A stretch of DNA of 64,000 nucleotides from Trichaptum fuscoviolaceum (lineage: Eukaryota; Basidiomycota; Agaricomycetes; Hymenochaetales; Trichaptaceae). Positions 1,840 to 17,576 of this stretch are shown here, piece after piece. A program made the position numbers and the translations under genes. The stretch spans positions 3,727,773 through 3,791,772 of the forward strand of contig CAJSYZ010000007.1 of assembly GCA_910574455.1 (NCBI GenBank), given 5' to 3'. The notes beneath the pieces were generated by a model. That model was not told the DNA's origin, did no database searches, and worked only from the letters and a program-made list of their open reading frames with translations. The first letter of the stretch is position 1. Each line of letters begins with the position of its first letter.

Positions 1840-2814
1840 TCATCGATGCAGAACATCCCGAGAAGTACGCACGATCGAAAAGGCAATTATCTCTTGCCAA
1901 CTTTCTTCATCTAGTTCACCACCCGCATTCTCAAACTGGACTTTCAGATCTCGTAGCGAACGCATATGGTCTTGCATAGACTCTCCGGGCCTAATCCATT
2001 TGCTCCGAAGGAGCGCTTGTGCTGTACAGCGCGCAAGCTCGGATCTGTTGCTGAACCGAGCTTTGAGCGTGTGCCAGAACTCGAAGGCGTCTGTCGTCTG
2101 TATCTGGCCCAAAAGCTTCGTGTCTACGTTGTCTGCAAGTTGGAAGTACGCCCTAGCTTCAGCACTAGCATATTCTGGGTCCAACTTGTCTGCCGTTCCG
2201 TCAACAATGGCCGCAAGGTGTCGGACGCGCAGGACTGCGTATGAGAATCTTGCCCAAGCCGCATAGTTTTTCCCGCTTTCTGGAAGACGTTCTGTGCATT
2301 TGATGAGCTTGTCGTGGGCCGGTTGGACCAGGCAATGAGCTTGATGGACGAGAGGATGAGGCATTGCACAGCACTGGGCTGACTGTGCTGACATGATATG
2401 AGCCCGCAGCGGCGGAAGTGCAGATTTCTGACCTCCGGACTGCTCATACGATCTGTACGTCACGTCCCATACTCCTGGTGTTGCTGGGCTGTTATCAGTC
2501 GCAGATGCCCGGGCCAGTGTCCCCGAAGTCTCTTGCGCGCCAGGTGGCACATCTGATGCCTCGGAGACCATAGAATCTAGTAGCTCGGCCAAAGCCCCTT
2601 GGTCCTCTGATCCGAGTAAGATGCTGACAGCAGCGCGCCCTTTCCGAGAGAGCGGCATAGGTGGTTGATAGTCAACAAGAAAGAGGCTTTGGTCAGATTG
2701 AAGTGGTATTCCCAGTCGTAACGAATTGAATTCGTGCCAGTGTTTACTGTGCCTGTAGAGAATTACTACAGGTCCATTAGAAAAAGTGAAGAATAAGACA
2801 CGAATCATATACAT
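1840..2814 (-). pseudogene. Copia-type gag-like fragment
   Basis: The open frame of about 324 codons has a C-terminal half resembling the UBN2/retrotran-gag-2 domain of Ty1/Copia elements. It has an aromatic-rich stretch around NYAAWARFSYAVLRV, then FWHTLKARF, then a region ending in MRSLRDLKVQFENAGGEL. In the family this domain forms the capsid that packages element RNA. The frame stops shortly after the domain. No zinc knuckle, protease, integrase or reverse transcriptase follows, so this is a truncated relic. The first ~20 codons look like intron: a donor-like GTATG lies just upstream and CTACAG lies near 2756. The real coding part may therefore begin lower. The family call is moderate; that it is not a complete element is clear. 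Confidence 0.5.
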
Positions 2815-3248
2815 ACCTCAGTATCTGTAGTAGTAAACTAAGGAGCGTTACAAGACAAGAATAAAATGAAGTACTGTTGGCCATTCCGTGGCTAACTGAC
2901 CAAGCTACCTTTTTACAGTCTGACGCAACCACCGGCTGACCAAATGGTGAATAAGTCCACATAAGTGCTATAGAAAAGAGATGTTGCAGTCAGAAACCTA
3001 ACAGTAGCGAAGTGATGAATCTCATTGCGATCCTTCGATGAGAGTTTCATGTAAAGAGCGGACGGCATGAGGCACTTAACAATCATGTTTTTTGTGGACC
3101 CGGGAGATGCCGATACAGAGTAGTTGTGCCCGAACTTTCCACCTGAGCTCACATCATCTTTGACGTTATAGTATCCTGCTCACTCTGTTTGCAGGCCGTA
3201 CTGACTAGTATATAACACTCTTGACGTAGAGGTTGTTGTCTCTCTCCA
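2815..3248. other. intergenic, upstream of Ser-rich gene
   Basis: This holds the second copy of the diverged repeat (about 2804-2892) and the presumed promoter of the gene starting at 3249. No TATA element or other regulatory site is convincing. Confidence 0.4.
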
Positions 3249-4705
3249 ATGCCACCTAAACAACCTAAATGCACGATCTTGAACAATGCGGCAGAAACAA
3301 CGACAAGAAACCCAAAGAACACCTCCAAATCCAAACTCAAGTCCAGATCTCGACCGAACTCAGATGAAAACGAGGGCATGATAATTAAGACACACAAGGG
3401 CGATAGGCAAACGAACAAAATCGGCTTCTCTTCTCGAAGGAAGAAATCCCTCCTGGGCAACACGCAATCCAGCACAACCGGACCACGGGCTTTCGCTACC
3501 GAGATTCAGAACTTCTTGGGGAACACTGGGTCTCGCAACGGGTTTGGACTTCGGACTGACGACGCTGGAGATAGCTTGGCTCATACTGGATGGGATGCTT
3601 ACAACTCTCAGGCTGCTCATGATACTGATCTCCGTTACCCTGTGTCTTCCGGCGCTGCTGGCAAAGAAGATTTATTGGAAGAAATTTTGGAAGGGATTGA
3701 AGGTGCAGAGTATAGCGAAGCTGATAGTCCTGCGTTTGACTCCTTGACCCATCATTTCGAGGCCTTGTAAGTTCTTTCAACTAAGTATTCTGAACTCGGA
3801 TAGTCGTTACTGAAATGCCTCTTATCTCCAGATCTGTGAAGGATAGAGTCTTCCCCAGGTCTAGGTCTAATAGCACGCGCACCGGCATCCAACAATCGCA
3901 TGACGTATTCTCAGACTCATCCGCTGCTTATAATGCTCCGTCCTCCATCTTCAGTAGCTCACAACGACATGCGACACGCGCAGCTTCATCTTCCAGACCC
4001 AATAGCTTCTTTGCTCTCAAGCGCACTGCATCGGCAACATGTCTATTCTGCAAAGCGCGCTTCGGCCCTCGCTCCCGCTCTAATTCGCAATCGCAATCAC
4101 AAACCCAGAACAGCACTACTTTGAGTTCGAGCTCGAGCGCATCTTACGACAGGTGCCAGTGCCACCGCTACTCAAAGGTCTTCAACCAGCGGAACAGCTT
4201 CCGCAGTATCGCACAGCAGTCCACGCCCATCAAACTTCGCCCGAAGAAAAGCTGCTATAGGATAGACATATCGTCTCCGGATGTTTATGGGACTTTCATG
4301 GACCTAGGGTCGGCCAACTCACAGGAACTAGGGCTGCCGCAATCTGGTGCTACATTAGAGCCACTCTCGGGCTCGCAGCAGGAAAGTCAATACGGGACAC
4401 AGACGACTGCGTCGGGCAGTCAGAGCTCAGTGGCATCAGCTATTGAACAACTCACACAACAGCTTGTCGGGTGCACATTGTCTCCTTGCTCATCTGGCTC
4501 TAATTCCCCAGATACACTATCTGACGACGACGAGCGTGAAGTTGAGTCTCTTCTTGAGTCTGGCCTCGAAGGTTCTGCAGACGAATCTCCGTCTCCTCCA
4601 CCCGCATTGGTGAGGCCTAGGCGACCTAATCCCGCTCTTATTTCTCCCTCGCTTGGCTACATTCCACTCGCGTTTCCGTTGCAAACTCAAGACTTTATGT
4701 TCTGA
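3249..4705 (+). CDS. hypothetical Ser/Arg-rich protein with Cys pairs
   Basis: Exons 3249-3766 and 3832-4705 join over a 65-bp GT-AG intron into a 463-aa protein of unknown family. The N-terminus is basic and polar. Residues about 130-165 are acidic. A middle part holds CLFCKARF and, about 40 residues later, RCQCHRYSK, spacing that could bind a metal (inference). The rest is low-complexity Ser/Gln/Arg with an acidic DDDE patch. It is probably a nuclear or regulatory protein, but nothing proves this. Its last codons and stop (TTC TGA) lie inside the 9-bp target duplication of the adjacent transposon. The element therefore landed on the stop codon, left the protein intact, and displaced the original 3' untranslated region to 17577 and beyond. 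Confidence 0.65.
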
Positions 4706-4706
4706 G
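4698..4706. repeat. target site duplication, left copy (TGTTCTGAG)
   Basis: TGTTCTGAG at 4698-4706 is repeated exactly at 17568-17576, immediately outside the two TIRs. The identical stretch can be extended to 11 bp (TATGTTCTGAG, 4696-4706 and 17566-17576). The 9-bp reading makes both TIRs begin with TAG, so it is preferred. Confidence 0.85.
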
Positions 4707-4832
4707 TAGTCTCGTAACCAGACCAGGCTACTTATATGGGTCGCTTTGCTCTGAAGGTGTAACCGGTCTGGTTTCTAAGGTTTTGATTTAAAGGACTTTG
4801 CAGGGAGTTTGAAATATAATACAAATGAAGTA
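4707..4832 (+). repeat. left terminal inverted repeat
   Basis: It begins TAGTCTCGTAACCAG and matches the reverse complement of 17438-17567 over its whole length. The outer ~25 nt and inner ~60 nt match well and the loop in the middle is diverged. Inner landmarks shared with the other end are GGTTTC(T/C)AAGGTTTT, ACTTTGCAGGGAGTTTGA and CAAATG(A/G)AGTA. It contains a foldback described separately. Confidence 0.85.
4716..4773 (+). other. hairpin within left TIR
   Basis: The arm AACCAGACCAGGCTAC (4716-4731) pairs with GTAACCGGTCTGGTT (4759-4773), giving about 15 pairs with one bulged A and a 27-nt loop. The right TIR folds the same way with the same bulge. One base pair differs compensatorily: an A-T pair here corresponds to a G-C pair there (AACCAGACC/GGTCTGGTT against AACCAGGCC/GGCCTGGTT). 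That points to selection on structure. Confidence 0.75.
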
Positions 4833-4944
4833 ACAGACCCAGTTGTTGCAATGACTAAGACGCGAGTAAAAAATAATGCCCCACGCTTTTTTGGTTGACG
4901 TGACGTGAGGTCACACTGTGGCAACCGTGTGCCTTTGCGTAATC

Positions 4945-4982
4945 GATCGACGCGACGCGCTTAACGCGCGTCTACGTCGATC
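4945..4982. promoter_or_regulatory. imperfect palindrome upstream of helicase gene
   Basis: The arms GATCGACGCGACGCGC and CGCGCGTCTACGTCGATC flank a TTAA centre, ending 34 nt before the helicase ATG. It could be an operator or a binding site for one of the element's own proteins, or simply part of the promoter. Function is inferred from position only. Confidence 0.45.
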
Positions 4983-5016
4983 TCTTCTTCGCTATTACAC
5001 TTGCTTCTAATTTACT

Positions 5017-7568
5017 ATGGATTCCAACTGTTCAACCTCTCATTTATGTGAACAAATGCAATACTTAGCTATTGAAGATTGCCATAAGGTGCCTTCTCAA
5101 GAGCTCGAAGGCCTAGTCAATAATATGGTCGCACAATTACAAGATGCTTTTGAGCGGCCGCTCACCGAACAAGAACACCAAGATGTCTCTCGGGCCTTCA
5201 CTCTGATGAATTATAGGACCTCGGGAACGAAGCTTCCGAGGCTCTTTCAGATGCTTGCGACCTTGGAGATCTTAAATGGTAAGAATCTTGTCGTTCGCGC
5301 TGGTACAGGCTCCGGCAAGTCTATTGCTATGGCGTTGCCTATGCTACTTCGTCCGGAATGGATTTTCGTGACAATTGTGCCACTCTTGGCATTACAAAAC
5401 CAGCACGTAAGCTTCTTAGCCTCCTACAATCTCTATAATGTCTGACATCACATTAACAGGTTGAAACATTCAATAAGCTCGGCATTGCAACAGTTGCTGT
5501 CAACAAGGAGACACCGCCGACTGAGAGACATTCGATCAAACAGGTACGTTTAACATTATGGATAAATACATTCGATATCTAACATGTTTCAAGGGCATTC
5601 TAAAAGGAAAATATCAGCATATTATTATCTCTCCAGAGCAGTGTTCTCGGAGTGGAAATGACACTCCTATGTTCACCAAGCTCCTGGAGAGCCCGGGCTT
5701 CATTGATCGAATTAAGTGTCTTAATTTCGATGAAGCTCATTTCATTGTAACCACGGGTGAGTTTCATTCTCTAACTACCAAACACCCCATAAATTAACGA
5801 CTGGCTTGCGAGTCTAGGTGAGGCGGACAAGGAGGGGACACCTTTTAGGCCAGAGTACGCCAAAGGGTTTGAAATTTTACTTCGACTTGCAACTGGTACC
5901 CCTTGCGCGATCTTCTCAGCGACAATGCCACCAGACGTTAAGGCGAAGATCTTAAAGTCTCTGCGACTCTCCTCTGACCCTCTGAGGACTCGTTTTATAT
6001 CTTTAACGACCAACCGGCCGAATCTGTGCTTCGCCATAAAAAAAATCCCCCGCCCCCTCTCTGATGTTTCTAACTTCGACTTCCTATTACCCGGGCTCTA
6101 CCATCCACCAATGGTAGCCTTCAAAAAAACCCTCATTTTCGTTCCTTCAAAAACCATCGCGATGCCGTCGAAGAGCGCCTGGCGAAGCGACTTCCTGGCG
6201 CAGTCAAGCGCATATACTCATTGATGTCCGATTCCTACAAAAAACGATGGACTGCCGATTTTCTGAAGCCAGATGGTGAAGTTTCTATATTGATAGCAAC
6301 AACTCTCCTTTCAAATGTGCGTCTTCTTGTTTTTTTTACCTACCTTCTAACTAATTCTTTGCAGGGATTCGACCCTCCAGATATTGATCTGGTCATCATT
6401 TATGGTGCACCAAAAAATATGCTCGAATTCGAGCAAATGGCCGGTCGAGGGGGGCGCGATGGCAAAACTAATTGCCTTGTCCTCTTCTTGGCCGAGCCTT
6501 GGCTATACATTAAAGAAGAAGAAAGAGAAGAAGGACTTACGAACCCTAATGGCTCTAAAATGGCGAAGGCTAGTATTACTGATAACGAAGTCTTTGACTT
6601 CGTACAGTCGTCCGACTGTCTGCGCCGACATCTTGCTCAACTCAACGAAGACACCTCAGACACCGGTAAGCTCAATAACTATATCAAATAACTTATTAAC
6701 TTACATTGTTATAGCTCTAGATTTTATCGGCCCGTTATGCTGTGATGCTGAGATGCATGGAAGTCTAAACTATCTAGACTTATGGCTACCGAATGCCTCA
6801 TCTAATGTTTCTCTGCCTGCCTTGGACTTGAGCTCGGACTCGGATTCTGAACCGGAATACATGGCTTTGAACTCTCGAACACGAACTGTCTCTGCTACTG
6901 CTGCATTTAGGCCAATGAAGGATCGCAAAGAACTCGAAGAAGTCTTGAAGGATTGGCGATCTAGTGTCCGGTCAGTAGATCTTGGTGCTTGTCTATTCCC
7001 TGTAGATTTCGTCTTATTGGCGACTTCTATAACTATGCTTGCTCGTCTTCGTCCTGACGCACCCGAGGTCTCCTCTGCATCAAGTTTATCTATGTTTCTA
7101 GGCGAAACCAATGACTGGTCGTGCAACTATGCACATAGCTTATACTGTGTTATCTCGGACTTCGATGCCTTTGTTACAGCAAGACAGCCGGTGCCCACCC
7201 CAAGACCCCCAAAGCCCGAGAAACCGGAAACACAATATATGGGAATGCTGAAGGTCAAACAGCAGGAGAGCGCGAACGCAAGTCAAACTACTCCAGTTGC
7301 GTCAACTTCTGGTTCCTCTTCCTTCTCTCCAGCTCTACCGCATACATCTAGCTTCCATACATTTAGGGTCAGGCCACAGCAGGAGAGCGCGAACGCAAGT
7401 CAAAATACTTCAATTCCGTTAACTTCTGGTTCCTCTTCCTCCTCTCAAGTTCAACCGCATACAGTCACCTTGAAGAGGTCGTTATCGCCGTCTCTTCCTC
7501 AGACACAGAAGCCAAAACGCGTCAAACGCGTACCTTTGGCAGAAAAGTCATTGAATTCTGCGGCTTGA
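5017..7568 (+). pseudogene. RecQ-family ATP-dependent DNA helicase, one frameshift
   Basis: Exons 5017-5406, 5460-5543, 5594-5756, 5818-6316, 6365-6665 and 6715-7568 use GT-AG introns of 48-61 bp. RecQ helicases unwind DNA 3'-5' with ATP. Visible motifs, in order: Walker A AGTGSGKS, the DEAH box (NFDEAHF), motif III-like FSATMP, then GFDPPDIDLVI and motif VI QMAGRGGRDG. These are followed by the zinc-binding RecQ-Ct start (CLRRHL ... LCCDAE). The C-terminal ~250 residues are Ser-rich and carry a duplicated block (QQESANASQ at about 7259 and 7378). The reading frame breaks at the A-run 6149-6153: one more A would continue the helicase frame through the following conserved segment, giving about 763 aa. 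It is either an inactivating deletion or a homopolymer sequencing error. The gene is convergent with the DUF6589 gene. Confidence 0.85.
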
Positions 7569-7575
7569 AACAATA

Positions 7576-7744
7576 AACTTCGCTTTTCCACGATTCGATC
7601 CTCTCACGAATACTATCAGATCCTCTAAATTCGTGCTAGACTACTATCCTGTGTACTCTTCGCTTTTCCACGATTCGATCCTCTCACGAATACTATCAGA
7701 TCACGATTCAATCCTCTCACGAATACTATCAGATCCTGTGTACT
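7576..7744. repeat. short tandem repeat between the two transposon genes
   Basis: Three copies of a unit containing CACGATTC(G/A)ATCC and ACGAATACTATCAGATC occur. The first two (7579-7623, 7658-7702) begin with CTTCGCTTTTC; the third (7703-7744) is shorter. The sequence CCTGTGTACT follows or precedes copies. They lie in the 3' region shared by the converging genes. Function is unknown. Confidence 0.7.
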
Positions 7745-8114
7745 AATATCCTCATACGCACCCAAGGATATCTTTTCGTCCATCATCACCTCATCTTCAT
7801 ACAAGCATGCGTTTACACGACTACGACTACAACATCAGTGTCATCGGGTGAGTCATCTGCATATAAAGTCTCCAATGAAATCTCATCGCTTCGGCCATCA
7901 TTCCACTGTGCAGTTCACCACCGACTTCAGATACTCTCCGATTATGAGACCTACTCCAAATTATCCATCCGGGTCCAGTACAGGCTTCAACCATGGTTAA
8001 CCATGGTTGAACTCGTACTATTGTTACACATGTTCAGACTATTCCCCAAATGTCATTATGTTCAGACTGTTCCCCAATTGTCATACAGCTGCTACGACAC
8101 TACCAACCATTCCG
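7745..8114. other. spacer between convergent helicase and DUF6589 genes
   Basis: No coding region is supported. It contains two near-identical phrases around GTTCAGACT(A/G)TTCCCCAA (about 8031 and 8060) and an AACCATGG-type duplication near 7990-8006. It probably serves as 3' untranslated and terminator sequence for both genes. Confidence 0.4.
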
Positions 8115-10563
8115 TCAGTCATAATCCATCTCTTCGTCTGATTCTTCGTCTGATTCCATTATCTCTTCCAATACTAACGCGCCATCTGTTGAAGCCCCTT
8201 CAAATGGATCACTAGTGTCCTCTTCATCGATCTCAGACATGTCTCCTACTATCCGGTTTGCCCAAGGCCTGTATTTCCTTCCAAATAATTTAATTCCAGT
8301 CTTTTCGAGCGCCTCTGCACCTGCCTGTAATTTATAGAGTAATAACATATTAATTTATGAATAATTAACGGAATATAATTTGAGTGATATAAGTATATGA
8401 ACTTACTTTCCAGACATCCTTTGTTGGCGTGACCTTATTTCTTGAGAAATCAATATCATACAAGCGCGACTCTCGCACTTTCCTTCGGATCCTTGTAACA
8501 TAAGGCTCACGATTCGGCTCTGTATGCCGACTCCCTCTCCAGGATGTGTTGGCCATTTTAACAAACATTTCTCGAAGCATGCGGAACATGCCAGTAATCG
8601 GAGTAATTTTTGCTAAGTGTTCTGCTGAACCATGTACTCCTCTTCCAGCAAAATATTCCTAAAACTGCATATTAGAGCTTGTTATAGCTGATAGGAAAAG
8701 ATAACATGCCTTTTGGTAATTGATTATATGTTCCATGTTCAAATCGACACCCATATAGTGTCCCGGGTGTCCGGACATGTTAATCAGCATATGGTCACGC
8801 ATAATATTACTGTGAGATGATTATATGCACATCAGTAACTATCAGAGATTGATAGAGAAGACTCACGCAAATTCCGGTGGCCAGGAGATCGTCAAATTTT
8901 GAATTAGATGCAGAAATTCAAGTGAATAGTTTTTGCCCCCTGAGCCACTGAAGAAACAAGCCAGAATGCCGAATAAAATTTCAACCCGTCCAAAGTCCCC
9001 GGAAGACATAGCCTTATCGAATTCAAAGAACAGTAAGAGGTCACGGTTAAGTAGAATAGCATTCAGAAGGACAATGTCTGAGTCTTCGGGGTTAGGTCCA
9101 GTGCAAGCTTCAAGACCAGAGTCACTTGCAAAGTTAGCTAGAATGTTTGCAGCCGTTTTTTTTAGTTGATCGGGTGTCGGATTTGTTTTAGCATAATCTT
9201 CAAGGTCAGTAAAGCCGGTCTCCTTCTCCCAAGCACCTAGAATGTTTCCAGAAAGCACATCGTTGTAGAACTCGTACATAGTATAATAGTCCGGCCTCTC
9301 ACACTTGAGTCTGACGATACCTAGTATGTCTCTGTATTGCGAGAGACTGCATGAATCTTCCGGTCGGCCTTCGTGAATTCTTTTAATGAAATAAGCTTCA
9401 TTTAGGTGCCCATGCCAAAGTCCGGGGCCAAGCTGAGTATTTTCCATACGTAAAAAAGGGGTTTCGTCTCCTCTTCGTTCCAGAAAACCACCCCGGTCCC
9501 GAGTGTTGGACAGTTGATCATAATAAGCCGGGATCGCTCTGTTGTCCATGCTTGTCGTGGGGACGCCGAGCTGATTCAAATAAGTCTCCTCTTTGAATCT
9601 CGTGAGTCCTTCAACAGTAGATTCATCAAATTGAAGCGTCGGTAATATATATTCGGTGGTTTTGTGTCCTTCAGGGGGAGGCCGGTGAGTTTCGTGCTGA
9701 AAGAGGTGCTTATATGCGTCCATGATGGCCCTGATTCCGGGTACATGGACCCCAAGGATTTCGACAATGTCAAGAACAAGATGATTTGATATTGATGCCA
9801 AGGCCTTTGATGATGGTTTGATATGCTGTTGATACGTGATAATCGGACTTTTTTTGCGTCGCTCGATAATAGGCTGCAGATCAAGAGACCCGGGGGGATA
9901 CTCCTGCCGGAGAGGATAGATAATAGCAGCAGTAAAGCTTCGCACTGAAGCCTCGGCCCCTGGTCGTTGGGTAACGTGTTTAGACATACAAATTTGCACG
10001 TTGTCTAGCCCAAGCATATGAGGTCCTCTTGCGACTAGCGAGGCTCGTTTCATGAGGCTCGTTTTTAGAAAATCGTGAATCCGTAGAATTGAAGAGTAAG
10101 AAACAGATAAGCCACACTTTGCCAAGAATCCGATAGCCAGTTTCTGAGCCCCAGTAGAGTAGAGAAAAAGCCCCAGAATTTGTTGAAATTTGATGCACAG
10201 TCTAGACCGACTTTTACAAAGCTGAGCAAAAACGAGCCCGCAGATCTAATGCATTTGCAATCAATGAAATGAGCTATTACAATATTAGAATATTAATCTA
10301 GACAACACTTACGAAGTCAGGAGCGTTCGAGGGGTTTTTTTTGGCCGCAAAACTGCCTTGCGCGGCCGTATAAAGTACCCGAGACAGGGTAGGGACGCAA
10401 GTCTTCAAAACACCGGTAACGTGGTCTTCGAAGCTGAAATCATTGACAGACTCATATGTCATATCCTTGACCTTCATTCTCATATGAGGCAGAGCGTCGC
10501 CCATTTCCCTATCAATGCCTGCGCAAACGACATCCGCAGCTAAACCACTGCTCCGCAACCAGC

Positions 10564-10568
10564 CCTCC
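10564..10568. repeat. 5-bp target site duplication of the LTR element (CCTCC)
   Basis: CCTCC at 10564-10568 recurs exactly at 16904-16908, directly outside the two LTRs, as expected for Ty3/Gypsy integrase. Confidence 0.9.
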
Positions 10569-11142
10569 TGTTACGACCTAGAGTGGTTCCTTCGCTTTCG
10601 AGACCCTGAATCGGACACGGACGACGATCGGACGCAATGAGCGGTGGTTCTCACTCTGAGAAGCACTTTACAAGTCAATTAAGCTATTCTACACATCAGA
10701 GCTAAAGATAAACACATCACCTGAGAAGCACTTTACAAGAGGCCAAAAGTGGAGTGCTTCGCAGGGGGATCCGCGGTTTTGATGAACAAAGGTAAAAACT
10801 ATACAGTACCAAGCCACTGGACCCTGATCCGACTAGGTCCGACCTATACCGCTGACGTAAGTCGGAGTTCGGGGTCCCGCTCTAGTCGGGGTCCCGCATC
10901 GGTAGAGCGGAGGTTCGAGTCGGAGTGGCGGAAGAAAGAAAGAAAGGAGAATTGTTTGCAGGGCGCTTGTCCTAGCGGCCTGCAAACATACAGGCAAGTA
11001 CTCTACGCCAAAAGGAAGAGAATCGGAGTCAAGATAGTCCGGTTTCGGACCGGACATGTCGGGGATCCGACTCGGAGTGTGATCGTAAAAGAAAATAAAA
11101 GAAAATAAAAGAAATAAAATAACCTGAGGCGGATTCCTGACA
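10569..11142 (-). repeat. LTR, 3' copy in element orientation
   Basis: 574 bp, matching 16330-16903 base for base as far as I could compare. In element orientation it starts TGTCAGG and ends CGTAACA. An internal phrase, GAGAAGCACTTTACAAG, occurs twice within the LTR. Confidence 0.95.
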
Positions 11143-11157
11143 TTATCCCCCTCCAAG
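11143..11157 (-). promoter_or_regulatory. polypurine tract
   Basis: Directly upstream of the 3' LTR the minus strand reads TTGGAGGGGGATAA followed by TGTCAGG. This is a purine-rich plus-strand primer of the form usual for basidiomycete Gypsy elements. Confidence 0.8.
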
Positions 11158-11184
11158 GGCGCTCCTAAAGAGCGCGCGCGTTCG

Positions 11185-14100
11185 TTAGCGAATGGCGTCG
11201 GGGTACCGACGATAGAACTTTCGGATAACGGCGGGGGCATGCTCCATGTTCGCGGCATCGATCCATTGGTCTTCCTCGGGTCCATAGCCTTTCCAGCGAA
11301 CCAAATACTGCAGAGTCCGACCTCGACCGCTTCGGCGCGAATTAAGGACTTCGGATACTTCGTATTCGACGTCGCCGTCGACGTTTACGGGCTCTGGCGG
11401 TGTCTGGACGCGACCAGGAATAGTGTCCGGTGTATACTTCGTGAGAAGCGACACATGGAACACTGGGTGAATCCGCATAGTCGCAGGCAGCTGAAGCTCG
11501 TAATTCAAGAGTCCGATCTTCCGCAAAACCGTGTAGGGTCCGAGTCTCCGCGGATTCAGCTTGCGCGTGCCCGGTATTGCGATATTCCGTGCGTCGAGCC
11601 ATACCTTGTCTCCTGGTCGAATGTCCGGCGTGTCTGCATGTCCCTGGTCGTAATACCGCTTCATCCGCTCCGCTGCGACTTCGAGAGCCGCGCGAGCGTC
11701 CTCCTGAGCCTTCTGAAGCAGGTCGAGTCGGTCATCCGCTGCGGGTACCGTCGAAAGTCCGGCACTCGGTACAATGGTGAACTCGGGGTCGTATCCATAC
11801 AACAGCGCGAAGGGAGACACCTTGGTAGCGGAGTGCGCTCGAGTGTTGTGCGCAAACTCCGCCATGGGCAGTAACTCCGACCAATTTTCCTGTCGGACGT
11901 CGGTGAACGCGCGGAGATATTGTTCCAACTCCTGGTTCACCCGCTCGGTCTGACCGTCCGTTTGCGGGTGGAAGGATGTCGATGTCGCGCCCTCGATCCC
12001 GAGTCGATGGAGTACCGCTTTCATAAACCGGGAGACAAACTGCGTACCCCGGTCCGAAATGACTTTGCGCGGTGTGCCATGGTGTTTCCAGACTTCGGAC
12101 ACAAACAAGTCGGCCGTCCGCGCGGAGTCAATATCCGAGGTCGTTGGTATGAAATGGGCCTGCTTGGTGAGTCGGTCTACCACCACAAAGATGGCGTCAT
12201 ATTCACCGGAATGTGGCAGCTGTGTAATGAAGTCGCACGAAATGACCTGCCACGGTCCGTCTGGTACTTCGTTGGGCTGAAGCGGACCAACCGGACGTTG
12301 CGGGATATTCTTCGTCCGCATGCAAGTGTCACAGCCCGACACGTACCGCTCGACGAAGGTAGACATACCAGGCCACCAGTAGTTCCGACTCACCAGCTCG
12401 TAGGTCTTCCAACGACCCGGATGTCCGACCGGAAGCGAATCGTGGTGTAACTTGACAATATCGCGGCGGATTTCCTCGTCCTTCGGCACATAGACCTTAC
12501 CCCGGTACAACAGCAGCCCATCCTCCGTGTTCCACTCCTCCAGATCGTTCGCCAGCGCGCGCGGAGCCCCTTCCTTCACCTTCTCAATCGCCTCGACCAA
12601 CTCCTCGTCAAACCTCTCGGACTCCCGAATCCTCCGCAACAACTCCGTATCCCCCTCGGCCCGGACCATCCCTCGTCGCATCGCCAACGTGTAGAAGCGG
12701 TTCGTGTCCAGCAGGACCTTGTTCGTATTGTCCGGTCCGTCAGGGCGAAGATCTTCGCGCCTGGACAAAGCATCTGGCTTTCCACCGAGTCGTCCGGGAC
12801 GGTGACGGATCAGAAAGTCAAAACGGCTAAGGAACAAGCTCCAGCGGGCCTGGCGTCTCGTAAGGTTTCGGGCTTCCGCGAAGAAGAGCAGGTTTCGGTG
12901 GTCCGACACAATATCAATTTTGTGCGGACTTCCTTCGAGATAGTGCCGCCACTCGTCCAAGGCTCGGATGATGGCTAGGAGCTCTTTGTCGTGGATCTCA
13001 TAGTTCCTCTCCGCATCGCCCAAGGACTTCGAATAGTAGGCCACTGGGTGAATGTCACCATCTGGTCCGATCTGCGAAAGTACCGCTCCGGTCGCAAAGT
13101 CCGAAGCATCGCATTCAAGGATGAAGGGTTTCTCAAGGTCGGGCATCGCGAGGACCGGTGCCTCCGCAAACTTCTTCTTCAGACCATCGAAGGACTCTTG
13201 CTGGCGGGTAGTCCAGCGCCACTGGACATCCTTCCGCAACAATTCGGTCATGGGAACCGCCAGCTTCGAGAAGTCCTTGATAAAACGTCGGTAGAAGTTT
13301 GCGAACCCCAAGAAAGCCTGAATGTCCTTCACCTTCGCCGGAGTCGGCCAGTCGGCACCGCTTCGACCTTCTTCGGATCCATTGAGATAATTCCAGAGCC
13401 AATGATCATGCCCAAGTACTCGATGGAGTCCTTGTGGAACTCGCACTTTTCGGGCTTACAGAACAGGTCATACTTTTCCAAACGTCGGAGTACCTCCTTA
13501 ACGTGTTCCTCGTGCTCCGACTCGTTCTCCGAAAATATGCAGATGTCATCGAGGTAGATAATGACAATAACATCCAGCATGTCCTTGAAGAGCTCGTTCA
13601 TCATCCGCTGAAACGTAGCAGGTGCGTTCGTAAGTCCGAAAGTCATAACGGTTGGTTCGAAGTGTCCTTCCTGAGTCCGAAAAGCGGCCTTCCACTCGTC
13701 GCCTTCCTTGATGCGGATATTGTTGTATCCGGCCCGCAAGTCGAGCTTCGTGAAAACGCGGGCCTTCTTCAAGGAGTCGATGAGTTCAGTGGTCAGGGGA
13801 AGCGGGTACCGATTTTTGACGGTGATCTCGTTGAGTTTTCGGTAGTCGACGACCATCCGAAGCGATCCGTCCTTCTTTTTGATGAAGAAGACCGGAGCAG
13901 CGGCGGGGGACTTCGACGGACGGATGTAGCCCTTGCGGAGGTTCTCCTCAATGAACTCCTTCAAGGCTGCACGTTCCGCCGGTGCCATAGGATAGATCTT
14001 GCTGTACGAAGGGGTCGATCCGGGCTCCAAGTCGATCGCATGGTCAAATGGCTTCCTTTCGGGCAACCGTTCGGCCTCTGACTTAGAAAACACCTTCGCA

Positions 14101-14993
14101 AACTCGCGGTACTGCGGGGGGACCATCTCCTCGAAGGACTTGTCGCCCTCCTTCACTGCCGACTTCTCCGCAATCGCCTGCGACCAGGTATACGAGGCCG
14201 CAACTTTATGCACAAAGTCCGGATCGTCCGCCACATAGAACTGCTCCGCATCATGGTAGATGTCCATGTACTTTTCGGAGTACCGAAATCCGGGGGGAAT
14301 CTTCGCAAGGTCGTCAGACTCACTGTCCGACTCGTCTGAATCATCACCGACTTCCGCAACGCAGACTCTCGCATGGGGCTGCGGTCGCGGTCGCATCTGT
14401 CGACTGTTCTTGCATCGCGCGGCCCGCAACTTGCGAACGGCGCGGGGTAGCGGTTGTCCGGCTTCTACGACTCTTGCCGCCTCGACAGGGCGGCATTCGT
14501 TCGGACATCGCGTAAAGCTGATGGTCTCGTCGTTCCAATCAATCTCCGGGTTATGGTGGTGTAGCCAATCTATCCCAATGATCAACGGATAGTCTCCGAT
14601 GTTTGCCACTGTGGCATCGACTTCTTCTTTGTGTCCACCAATCTCCAGAGTAAGTCGGACTTGGTCTGTAATCGGACCACTCTGGTTCAGCGAATCGTCG
14701 GCGTTGTACACCTTGATCGGTCGGTCGAGAGGACGAGTACGTAGTCCGAACTTCCGCACCAACTTCTGGTTGATAATCACCGAAAATGCACCGCAGTCTA
14801 GCAGCGCTCTCATGCTCAAAATCTTTCGGCCGTCACTTATTCTCACTGGGACATGGATGAATCGACGCAAACTCTTGTGTATTAGCGAAGTACGATTGTA
14901 CACAGAGGGATCGGACACATCATCATCTAACAGCGAAAATCGGTTCGGGGTCTTTGGCGGAACGACCGCGCGCCTAGACCCACTCAAAAACCC
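11185..14993 (-). pseudogene. Pol polyprotein (PR-RT-RH-IN-chromodomain), one frameshift
   Basis: Pol is read in the -1 frame relative to Gag. Its first half (to 13329) contains an aspartic protease with LLDCGA (Cys in place of the usual Ser/Thr) and the reverse transcriptase with YLDD (YLDDICIF). The second half, open to 11185, contains RNase H (FILECDASD), the integrase zinc finger (two His in HHDSLPVGH, then CDTC), the DDE core (CDF, SDRG, TERVNQELE) and a C-terminal chromodomain (YLVRWKGYGPEEDQW). A 1-nt deletion near 13353-13358, between RT and RNase H, puts the halves in different frames. Pol is thus broken although the LTRs look identical. It could be a very young mutation or a sequence error. 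Confidence 0.9.
14984..14993 (-). promoter_or_regulatory. candidate -1 ribosomal frameshift site at gag-pol junction
   Basis: The last Gag codons read CAG GGT TTT TGA. The heptamer G GGT TTT is a textbook X XXY YYZ slippery site placed directly before the Gag stop, and Pol is open in the -1 frame through it. The mechanism is well known in retroelements; its use here is inferred. Confidence 0.6.
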
Positions 14994-16264
14994 TGACTCT
15001 TGAGAGCAGCTGCGACCGCTTTGGCGATCTCGTCAACGGTCGGAGTGCGAGCGGCGTTCACGGTCGGAGTCTCGTCGCGGACTTCCTCGAGGGTTGCAGT
15101 CGGTGTCTTGGGAGCGGCGGTGGGCGCAGAGGCGGCGGGCGGAGCGGTGGACGACGAGGCGGCGGTCTGTGAAGCCACCTTCGATCGGACATTTGATTTC
15201 TTGCTCCGCTGCGGACAGTCTCGAGCCAGATGTCCATGCTCACCGCACTGGAAGCAGAGTCCGCGGCGCATCATCTCTTCGGTGCTCAAGCGGTCGATGT
15301 CCATCGCGTCGGGGTCCCGAGTCGGTCCGCGCGAAGCGGAGTGGTGTGTCTGCGAGCGGGAGCCCCAGTTCGAACTCCAGTTGTTCTGCTTGAAGCCAGT
15401 CCGACGCGCACGCAAGTCCTCATCGTATTCGCAAAGCAGTCGGACCCACTGGTCGAAGCTCTTCGTCTCCCGGATCTCCTTGCTCGCCAGATCGTAGCGG
15501 AACTGGCTGCTGAGTCCGGTCTCGAACACCAGCATCTTCCCCTCCATCCCCCAGTCCACCTCCGACTCCACCAGCAACGCACGAAACTTCGCCGCATACT
15601 CCGACACTGTGTCCTTGCCCTGGCGCAGTTTCATAAGCTCCTGTCCGGCGTGGCGCTTGATGTTCGGACGTCCGAACGCGGACTGGAGGGACGCCCGGAA
15701 GAGTTCCAAGTCGGTCATGAGAGCGGGGACTTCGGTGCCCTCGAGGGCGGCGGTCGTGTGCGGACGAGCCCATTGTTCAGCGGGCCCGCGGAGTAGCGAA
15801 GCTGCCCATAGACAGGCCATCGTCGGACTGCCTACAAACTCCTGGGGGCGCATCCGGACATAAAGTCGGACCTTCTGCGACCACTCCTCAAAGCTGATAC
15901 TCTCCGCCTCCTTATCTTTTGGTGTACGCCCATAGAACGCGGGCGGGGCACCGACCTTCGGACCCTTGGGAGTGCGGGTCGCGCCTTCCTGCGCATTTCG
16001 GACAAACAGGTTCATGAAGTCGTGGAGGCGCTGGTTTTCGGCGGTCACCTCCTGCAGGTGTGACTGGAGAGGTCGGGTGGCATCATTGATAGCCTGGAGG
16101 ACGTCTGGGGGGAGGTCTCCGCCCTGCTGGGGCGGCGGTGCGGCCTGTGGGGGAGCAGCACCCGGAGTCGGAGTCGGAGCAGCGCCTGGCGCGGGCGCTG
16201 CTTGCGCGGGGTTGATCGGGTCGGTCATATCTTCGTCGGAGTCTTCTTGTCCGAATCTTCCCAT
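14984..16264 (-). CDS. Gag protein of the Ty3/Gypsy element
   Basis: A 426-aa intact frame. It has a Pro/Ala-rich N-terminus, a coiled region around residues 60-85, and a capsid (retrotrans-gag) domain with WAASLLRGPAEQWARP and the LRQGKDTVSEYAAKFRALL motif. A CCHC zinc knuckle (CFQCGEHGHLARDC) follows. It forms the particle and binds the element RNA. The C-terminus is Ala/Thr-rich and ends at the candidate frameshift site into Pol. There is no sign of disruption. Confidence 0.93.
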   Translation of the reverse strand: MGRFGQEDSDEDMTDPINPAQAAPAPGAAPTPTPGAAPPQAAPPPQQGGDLPPDVLQAINDATRPLQSHLQEVTAENQRLHDFMNLFVRNAQEGATRTPKGPKVGAPPAFYGRTPKDKEAESISFEEWSQKVRLYVRMRPQEFVGSPTMACLWAASLLRGPAEQWARPHTTAALEGTEVPALMTDLELFRASLQSAFGRPNIKRHAGQELMKLRQGKDTVSEYAAKFRALLVESEVDWGMEGKMLVFETGLSSQFRYDLASKEIRETKSFDQWVRLLCEYDEDLRARRTGFKQNNWSSNWGSRSQTHHSASRGPTRDPDAMDIDRLSTEEMMRRGLCFQCGEHGHLARDCPQRSKKSNVRSKVASQTAASSSTAPPAASAPTAAPKTPTATLEEVRDETPTVNAARTPTVDEIAKAVAAALKSQGF

Positions 16265-16329
16265 TCAGAGGGATCAAAAATCGGTCGGTGCAATCGCAGG
16301 GCGTCGAAAGAACAAACTTTTTGGCCTAA

Positions 16330-16903
16330 TGTTACGACCTAGAGTGGTTCCTTCGCTTTCGAGACCCTGAATCGGACACGGACGACGATCGGACGCAATG
16401 AGCGGTGGTTCTCACTCTGAGAAGCACTTTACAAGTCAATTAAGCTATTCTACACATCAGAGCTAAAGATAAACACATCACCTGAGAAGCACTTTACAAG
16501 AGGCCAAAAGTGGAGTGCTTCGCAGGGGGATCCGCGGTTTTGATGAACAAAGGTAAAAACTATACAGTACCAAGCCACTGGACCCTGATCCGACTAGGTC
16601 CGACCTATACCGCTGACGTAAGTCGGAGTTCGGGGTCCCGCTCTAGTCGGGGTCCCGCATCGGTAGAGCGGAGGTTCGAGTCGGAGTGGCGGAAGAAAGA
16701 AAGAAAGGAGAATTGTTTGCAGGGCGCTTGTCCTAGCGGCCTGCAAACATACAGGCAAGTACTCTACGCCAAAAGGAAGAGAATCGGAGTCAAGATAGTC
16801 CGGTTTCGGACCGGACATGTCGGGGATCCGACTCGGAGTGTGATCGTAAAAGAAAATAAAAGAAAATAAAAGAAATAAAATAACCTGAGGCGGATTCCTG
16901 ACA
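16330..16903 (-). repeat. LTR, 5' copy in element orientation
   Basis: 574 bp, apparently identical to 10569-11142. It carries the element's promoter. It is followed outward by CCTCC (16904-16908) and then by exon 1 of the DUF6589 gene. Confidence 0.95.
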
Positions 16904-17437
16904 CCTCCAAAGTCTTCCGGCCATCGTCGTCTTGCGCTATCAGGTTCAAAAGATTCCCAATTTGAATCGGGTCTTTCATGAATTTTGTTCTTGACGCCTT
17001 GAATTGCGTGTGCTTGCTGAGAACTCTACAAAGCAGCTCTGAGACAGGCATTCTCATCCCTTTTAAGATGTCGACGACACATCGTATGCGATCGTCGGCA
17101 TAAACACTTGAGGTTTCGACTCTGTTCCATTCTAGACAGAGAGGCCCGTTCTGTATAGGTGTCTGTTGTTGTTGTTGTTGTTGTTGTTGATAGTTGATAT
17201 TATGTTGTCCAAAGCCTTGCATTGCGAAGAATTAATGATCGAAATCTGATATGGCAATCGAGCACAGGCGCCGTCGGAGCGCTCAGAGTATCGTAAGGTA
17301 ACGTTGAAGGCAAGGGACACGCGTTCTAGGTACGCGACTGCCGTGACACTTAGCTAATGTTAACTCAATTCTTTATTACATTCACATGACGACATCAGAC
17401 GTTATTTTTGGAATACAGGGGGAACCTATGAAATCAC

Positions 17438-17567
17438 TACTCCATTTGGATTAATTTCAAACTCCCTGCAAAGTCTTGTAATCAAAAACCTTGGAAACCA
17501 GGCCAGCTACGCTGTGCTTGCTCCGCAAGCCGTATAAAGAAAGTAGCTTGGCCTGGTTACGAGGCTA
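17438..17567 (-). repeat. right terminal inverted repeat
   Basis: The reverse complement begins TAGCCTCGTAACCAG and matches the left TIR (see 4707-4832). The DUF6589 start codon lies 216 bp inside it. It is followed outward by the second TGTTCTGAG copy (17568-17576). Confidence 0.85.
17496..17558 (-). other. hairpin within right TIR
   Basis: AACCAGGCCAGCTAC (17496-17510) pairs with GTAGCTTGGCCTGGTT (17543-17558), giving 15 pairs with one bulged base and a 32-nt loop. The loop differs from the left TIR while the stem is kept. Confidence 0.75.
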
Positions 17568-17576
17568 TGTTCTGAG
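17568..17576. repeat. target site duplication, right copy (TGTTCTGAG)
   Basis: Exact match to 4698-4706, placed directly outside the right TIR. Confidence 0.85.

Follow-up and report, generated by a model that had tools for sequence, protein, structure and literature searches.

Within the 64,000-nucleotide stretch of Trichaptum fuscoviolaceum DNA that was analyzed, hereafter the window, a RecQ-like helicase gene and a DUF6589 gene face each other between long inverted repeats bordered by an exact 9-bp duplication (Table 1). An earlier note on this DNA had proposed a DNA transposon with inverted repeats of ~130 bp (4707-4832 and 17438-17567), a 9-bp flanking duplication, and two inward-facing genes for a RecQ-like helicase and a DUF6589 protein. 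The repeats were recovered at closely similar limits, the duplication was found on both sides, and both gene calls were supported by Pfam matches. The right repeat starts TAGCCTCGTAACCAG, and the two repeats agree over 27 bp at 89% and then over 84 bp at 74% identity; a gapped alignment was also made. A maximal reading of the duplication as 11 bp was rejected because the two extra bases, TA, are part of the element's own terminus. A host ORF of 296 aa without a Pfam match (3815-4705) adjoins the left end, and its TGA stop lies inside the target duplication, so that its reading frame was left unchanged by the insertion. Elsewhere, the window contains a Copia-type gag fragment (1843-2817, minus strand; PF14223, 8.1e-10), and a tRNA scan run with the bacterial code found no tRNA in it.

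Table 1. Features of the transposon locus in window coordinates.
Feature	Position	Strand	Remarks
Left target-site duplication, TGTTCTGAG	4698-4706	.	exact 9-bp
Whole transposon	4707-17567		two convergent genes between inverted ends
Left terminal inverted repeat, starts TAGTCTCGTAACCAG	4707-4835	+	inner limit approximate
RecQ-like helicase gene	about 5017-7568	+	multi-exon; ORF-based limits; Pfam matches
DUF6589 gene (presumed DDE transposase)	8115-17222	-	Pfam; split by retrotransposon
DUF6589 exon 1, split	17222-16904 + 10563-10313	-	predicted from L034 copy
DUF6589 further exons	10245-8867, 8809-8710, 8658-8407, 8324-8115	-	predicted from L034 copy
Nested LTR retrotransposon, Ty3/gypsy type, 6.3-kb, full-length	10569-16903	-	not part of transposon
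LTRs of nested retrotransposon	10569-11142 and 16330-16903		574 bp each, 100% identical
pol of nested retrotransposon, two overlapping frames	11185-13455 and 13329-15032	-
gag of nested retrotransposon	14984-16264	-	Pfam
Right terminal inverted repeat, ends ...AGGCTA	17437-17567	-	inner limit approximate
Right target-site duplication, TGTTCTGAG	17568-17576	.	exact 9-bp

The helicase gene product matched the Pfam families DEAD (PF00270, 2.5e-11) and Helicase_C (PF00271, 3e-8), and the closest solved chains, found with a 297-aa piece of the copy L034 (described below) as the query, were those of WRN and BLM (E 3e-5). Just 3' of this gene, direct 45-bp repeats occupy positions 7578-7735, two identical ones that lie 80 bp apart, plus a third with 73% identity. 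The DUF6589 protein matched PF20231 (2e-66); the exons of its gene in the window were obtained by transferring the exon model of L034 by eye on the sequence.

The statement of the earlier note that nothing else lies between the genes did not hold, since an LTR retrotransposon inserted in exon 1 of the DUF6589 gene had been overlooked. Its insertion generated a 5-bp duplication, CCTCC (16904-16908, repeated at 10564-10568). Pfam matches to gag, RNase H, integrase, and chromodomain families, obtained in a scan that left out the reverse-transcriptase frame, are the domains by which we called it Ty3/gypsy-type. All 40 listed matches of its LTR in the genome, its own two included, were 98-100% identical, which marks it as an independent young family. 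In a frame comparison with L034, the helicase frame of the window was found to be broken near 6.1 kb; with the DUF6589 gene split as well, the window copy is probably no longer autonomous.

Genome searches with each end of the element returned at least 40 and at least 42 matches, respectively. For the boundary test, 36 regions picked from these lists of matches were combined with the window and three gene-bearing relatives, giving 40 loci, of which 28 were paired at their ends and 12 were unpaired. Exact 9-bp duplications flanked 21 of the 28 paired loci and exact 8-bp duplications another 4, while 3 had none, the pair giving the longest duplication being taken wherever a locus offered several. 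The control, in which the left flank of one copy was set against the right flank of another, yielded no duplication in 756 combinations. A stricter earlier pass over 37 loci gave 24 paired loci, with duplications of 9 bp in 17, of 8 bp in 4, and none in 3. Other copies in the genome thus have the ends and the duplication length of the window element in common with it. No fixed sequence was seen among the target duplications of the paired loci.

These duplications bear on whether the element could be a KolobokH, that is, a fungal Kolobok element with a RecQ helicase. In the excerpted text of PMC9587614, KolobokH encodes RecQ and is found only in fungi, and in one algal Kolobok the RecQ gene lies on the opposite strand, so that the orientation of the genes by itself would not rule Kolobok out. 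However, Kolobok duplicates TTAA, 4 bp, according to the same text, against 9 bp of no fixed sequence here; we rejected this extremely improbable assignment on duplication length.

Five copies, namely the window element, L034, L012, C9a, and C9b, have the two genes between a pair of ends and are flanked by an exact 9-bp duplication. Identity to the window copy over the DUF6589 exons was 96% for L034, 60% for L012, and 53% for both C9a and C9b. L034 lies on contig 4, spans 6587 bp without the retrotransposon, and is flanked by the 9-bp duplication TGCTGGCAC; a five-exon model of its DUF6589 gene, drawn up by eye, encodes 836 aa. Identity between L034 and the window copy reaches 99.2% on one side and 99.7% on the other, yet is only 94.7% across most of the DUF6589 gene; this mosaic pattern suggests that copies have recombined. 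On contig 3 (166-181 kb), a sixth close relative has just one visible end, its DUF6589 gene is split, and the nearest helicase match lies 12 kb off. The more distant L017 has 83-bp inverted ends that are 87% identical and start CTAGACTCG; no target duplication was found in the distant pair copies L017-L019, though their end sequences are similar.

Short derivatives are also present in the genome. The short copies L035 and L041 match both ends of the long element (96-98% and 90-95%), as would be predicted if such derivatives were mobilized in trans. Another derivative of the window transposon, L050 (contig 7, 3685900-3693330), is interrupted by an apparent DIRS-type retroelement, so called from reverse-transcriptase-like and tyrosine-recombinase-like frames, with domains judged by eye, and from split direct repeats. 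Because the longest duplication was chosen at each locus, a 686-bp short copy nested in C9a is one of the 28 paired rows, and the outer C9a element has an exact 9-bp duplication of its own, GTTCAGTTC. At about 933.5-942.0 kb on contig 9, the C9a region was further seen to consist of a putative AcademH-type element (see below) nested in another inverted-repeat element, whose ends TAGTGTTGCAAAAGTTCGGTTC are alike at 21 of 22 positions and whose duplication CACCGGCG is 8 bp long.

When the flanks of C9a were joined with a single 9-mer, 7 other places in the genome matched along the full 180 bases with 91-100% identity, which shows that the element inserted precisely, with a 9-bp duplication, into a repeat of which copies free of the element exist. 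The joined flanks of the window insertion (expected allele ...TTTATGTTCTGAGGTGATATC...) matched only their own two halves in this genome. Within this genome, the empty-site check was thus positive for the relative C9a and negative for the window insertion. Together with the shared ends and the duplication length in other copies, the empty sites of C9a corroborate the proposed DNA transposon with terminal inverted repeats. The same evidence bears on the possibility that host helicase and DUF6589 genes lie by chance between chance inverted repeats. Such a reading could draw on the labels of the named DUF6589 homologues, which are just 'hypothetical' or 'DUF6589 domain-containing', but multi-copy ends, 9-bp duplications, and empty sites leave it a negligible probability, and we rejected it on the copies and empty sites.

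Across the genome, 42 DUF6589 matches merged by position into 22 loci. A helicase match, sought with two helicase queries, within 5 kb, and in convergent orientation, was found at 18 of them; at the other four, the nearest helicase was convergent at 12 kb, convergent at 39 kb, and non-convergent at 6 and 27 kb. Even copies at only about 25-39% protein identity (L017-L019) kept the pairing. The helicase suggested in the earlier note as the partner of DUF6589 is thus a regular one. This regularity matters for the alternative of a Mutator-like element (MULE) that carries the helicase as a passenger. MULEs have long inverted ends and duplications of about 9 bp, and the present element resembles them in both respects. 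However, the helicase is a regular partner rather than a passenger, and the Pfam scans of the DUF6589 proteins, at E up to 0.1 and up to 0.5, detected neither the MULE domain (PF10551) nor any other transposase domain. We consider a MULE very unlikely and rejected it because its transposase domain is missing from these scans.

The DUF6589 proteins were aligned in 95 rows, comprising 94 aligned proteins, the window ORF included, and the spliced L034 protein. The first conserved D (in DNFD or LDN) and the second (in HGDLGT or YDQLS) each occurred in all 95 rows. Of the 89 rows with a residue at the site of the conserved E (in VDWLLE or VDLNME), 88 have it, and six rows, including the window ORF, have a gap there; the rows are not independent of one another. 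This conservation appears to follow the pattern of a DDE transposase. The DUF6589 profile had no match among solved structures even at E 10. From the D, D, E pattern and the constant position of the gene inside the ends, DUF6589 is very probably the transposase of the element, in support of the role that the earlier note had assigned to it.

A homologue search with the 836-aa L034 protein gave only 3 matches (459-472 aa); the wider search used as its query a relative whose DUF6589 part is a single 658-aa open frame. Those of the 120 listed homologues (of 383) that carry organism names come from mushroom-forming fungi. We found no paper that ties DUF6589, PF20231, or IPR046496 to a transposon in the full-text literature searched, Repbase being outside its scope, and the assignment of DUF6589 as a transposase may therefore be a small addition to knowledge.

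Taking these data together, we propose that the DUF6589 protein, acting as a DDE-type transposase, would bind the roughly 130-bp inverted ends, cut the element out, and insert it into a target opened by staggered cuts 9 nt apart, the repair of which would give the 9-bp duplication. These steps are probable in view of the duplication length, the empty sites, and general knowledge of DDE enzymes, and we infer cut-and-paste movement rather than copying. The RecQ-like helicase of the element may serve as a helper that unwinds or clears strands, either at the ends or during donor or target repair.

The window element is most likely of the AcademH type (Academ superfamily), with DUF6589 as its DDE-type transposase and the RecQ-like helicase as its helper. 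Kojima (2020, Mob DNA 11:15), as summarized in later papers, reportedly described AcademH as a helicase-encoding lineage of animals and fungi. Passages of PMC10045372 give 9- or 10-bp duplications for AcademH and 3- or 4-bp duplications for AcademX, and relate this difference to the encoded helicase versus nuclease. In the sections of PMC10799480 cited here, AcademH are low-copy elements of Basidiomycota, Ascomycota, and Mucoromycota, and the domains attributed to AcademH, KolobokH, or Helitrons include DEAD and Helicase_C. A 2019 paper, as excerpted, reports recognizable protein domains such as DEAD and recQ_fam in 81% of fungal Academ copies and states that Academs frequently carry host-gene annotations (PMC6416283); a RecQ helicase in Academ was named in 2013 in a passage of PMC3627910, and Academ is listed as a DDD/E superfamily in one of PMC9587614. 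The window element agrees with AcademH in being a DNA transposon with terminal inverted repeats, in its RecQ-like helicase, in its 9-bp duplication (10 bp also being allowed), and in its occurrence in fungi. The earlier note had regarded the combination of helicase, inverted repeats, and 9-bp duplication as undescribed; this claim fails because AcademH had been reported as helicase-encoding with duplications of 9 or 10 bp, and recQ and DEAD domains had been reported in fungal Academs. The comparison used the published description of AcademH, Academ transposase homology lying outside it, so that the proposed membership rests on anatomy.

The element might instead represent a separate, undescribed superfamily, in which a DUF6589 transposase unrelated to Academ gained a RecQ helicase independently as its regular convergent partner, as in KolobokH, and in which the AcademH-like duplication length is a convergence. 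Pfam still names DUF6589 as of 'unknown function', the literature search described above linked it to no transposon, and a RecQ helicase does occur in another superfamily in the excerpted text of PMC9587614. However, the helicase type, the 9-bp duplication, and the fungal distribution all fit AcademH as reported, and we regard a separate superfamily as unlikely. Under the favored AcademH assignment, DUF6589 proteins and their RecQ-like neighbors look like parts of AcademH-type elements and should be checked before being counted as host genes in annotation. This genome holds relatives that carry the genes, the DUF6589 gene model being open in at least one of them, along with numerous short copies whose ends are known and the empty sites of one relative; a cell test of the part that the helicase plays in DDE transposition would therefore be possible.

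Among known systems, Helitrons resemble the window element in carrying a helicase but differ in their HUH nuclease and in having neither terminal inverted repeats nor a target duplication. AcademX, which belongs to the same superfamily if the present assignment is right, has duplications of 3 or 4 bp and a nuclease (PMC10045372, in the passages cited), whereas the window element has a 9-bp duplication and, the retrotransposon aside, encodes only the helicase and DUF6589. KolobokH is likewise a fungal transposon with a RecQ helicase but has 4-bp TTAA duplications, as excerpted from PMC9587614. Compared by description, AcademH showed no difference from the window element, both being fungal DNA transposons with a helicase and a 9-bp duplication, apart from the nested retrotransposon that breaks the window copy. 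Non-autonomous relatives abound in this genome, much as a passage of PMC8290104 reports widespread putative non-autonomous Academ elements from the mushroom Marasmius oreades.
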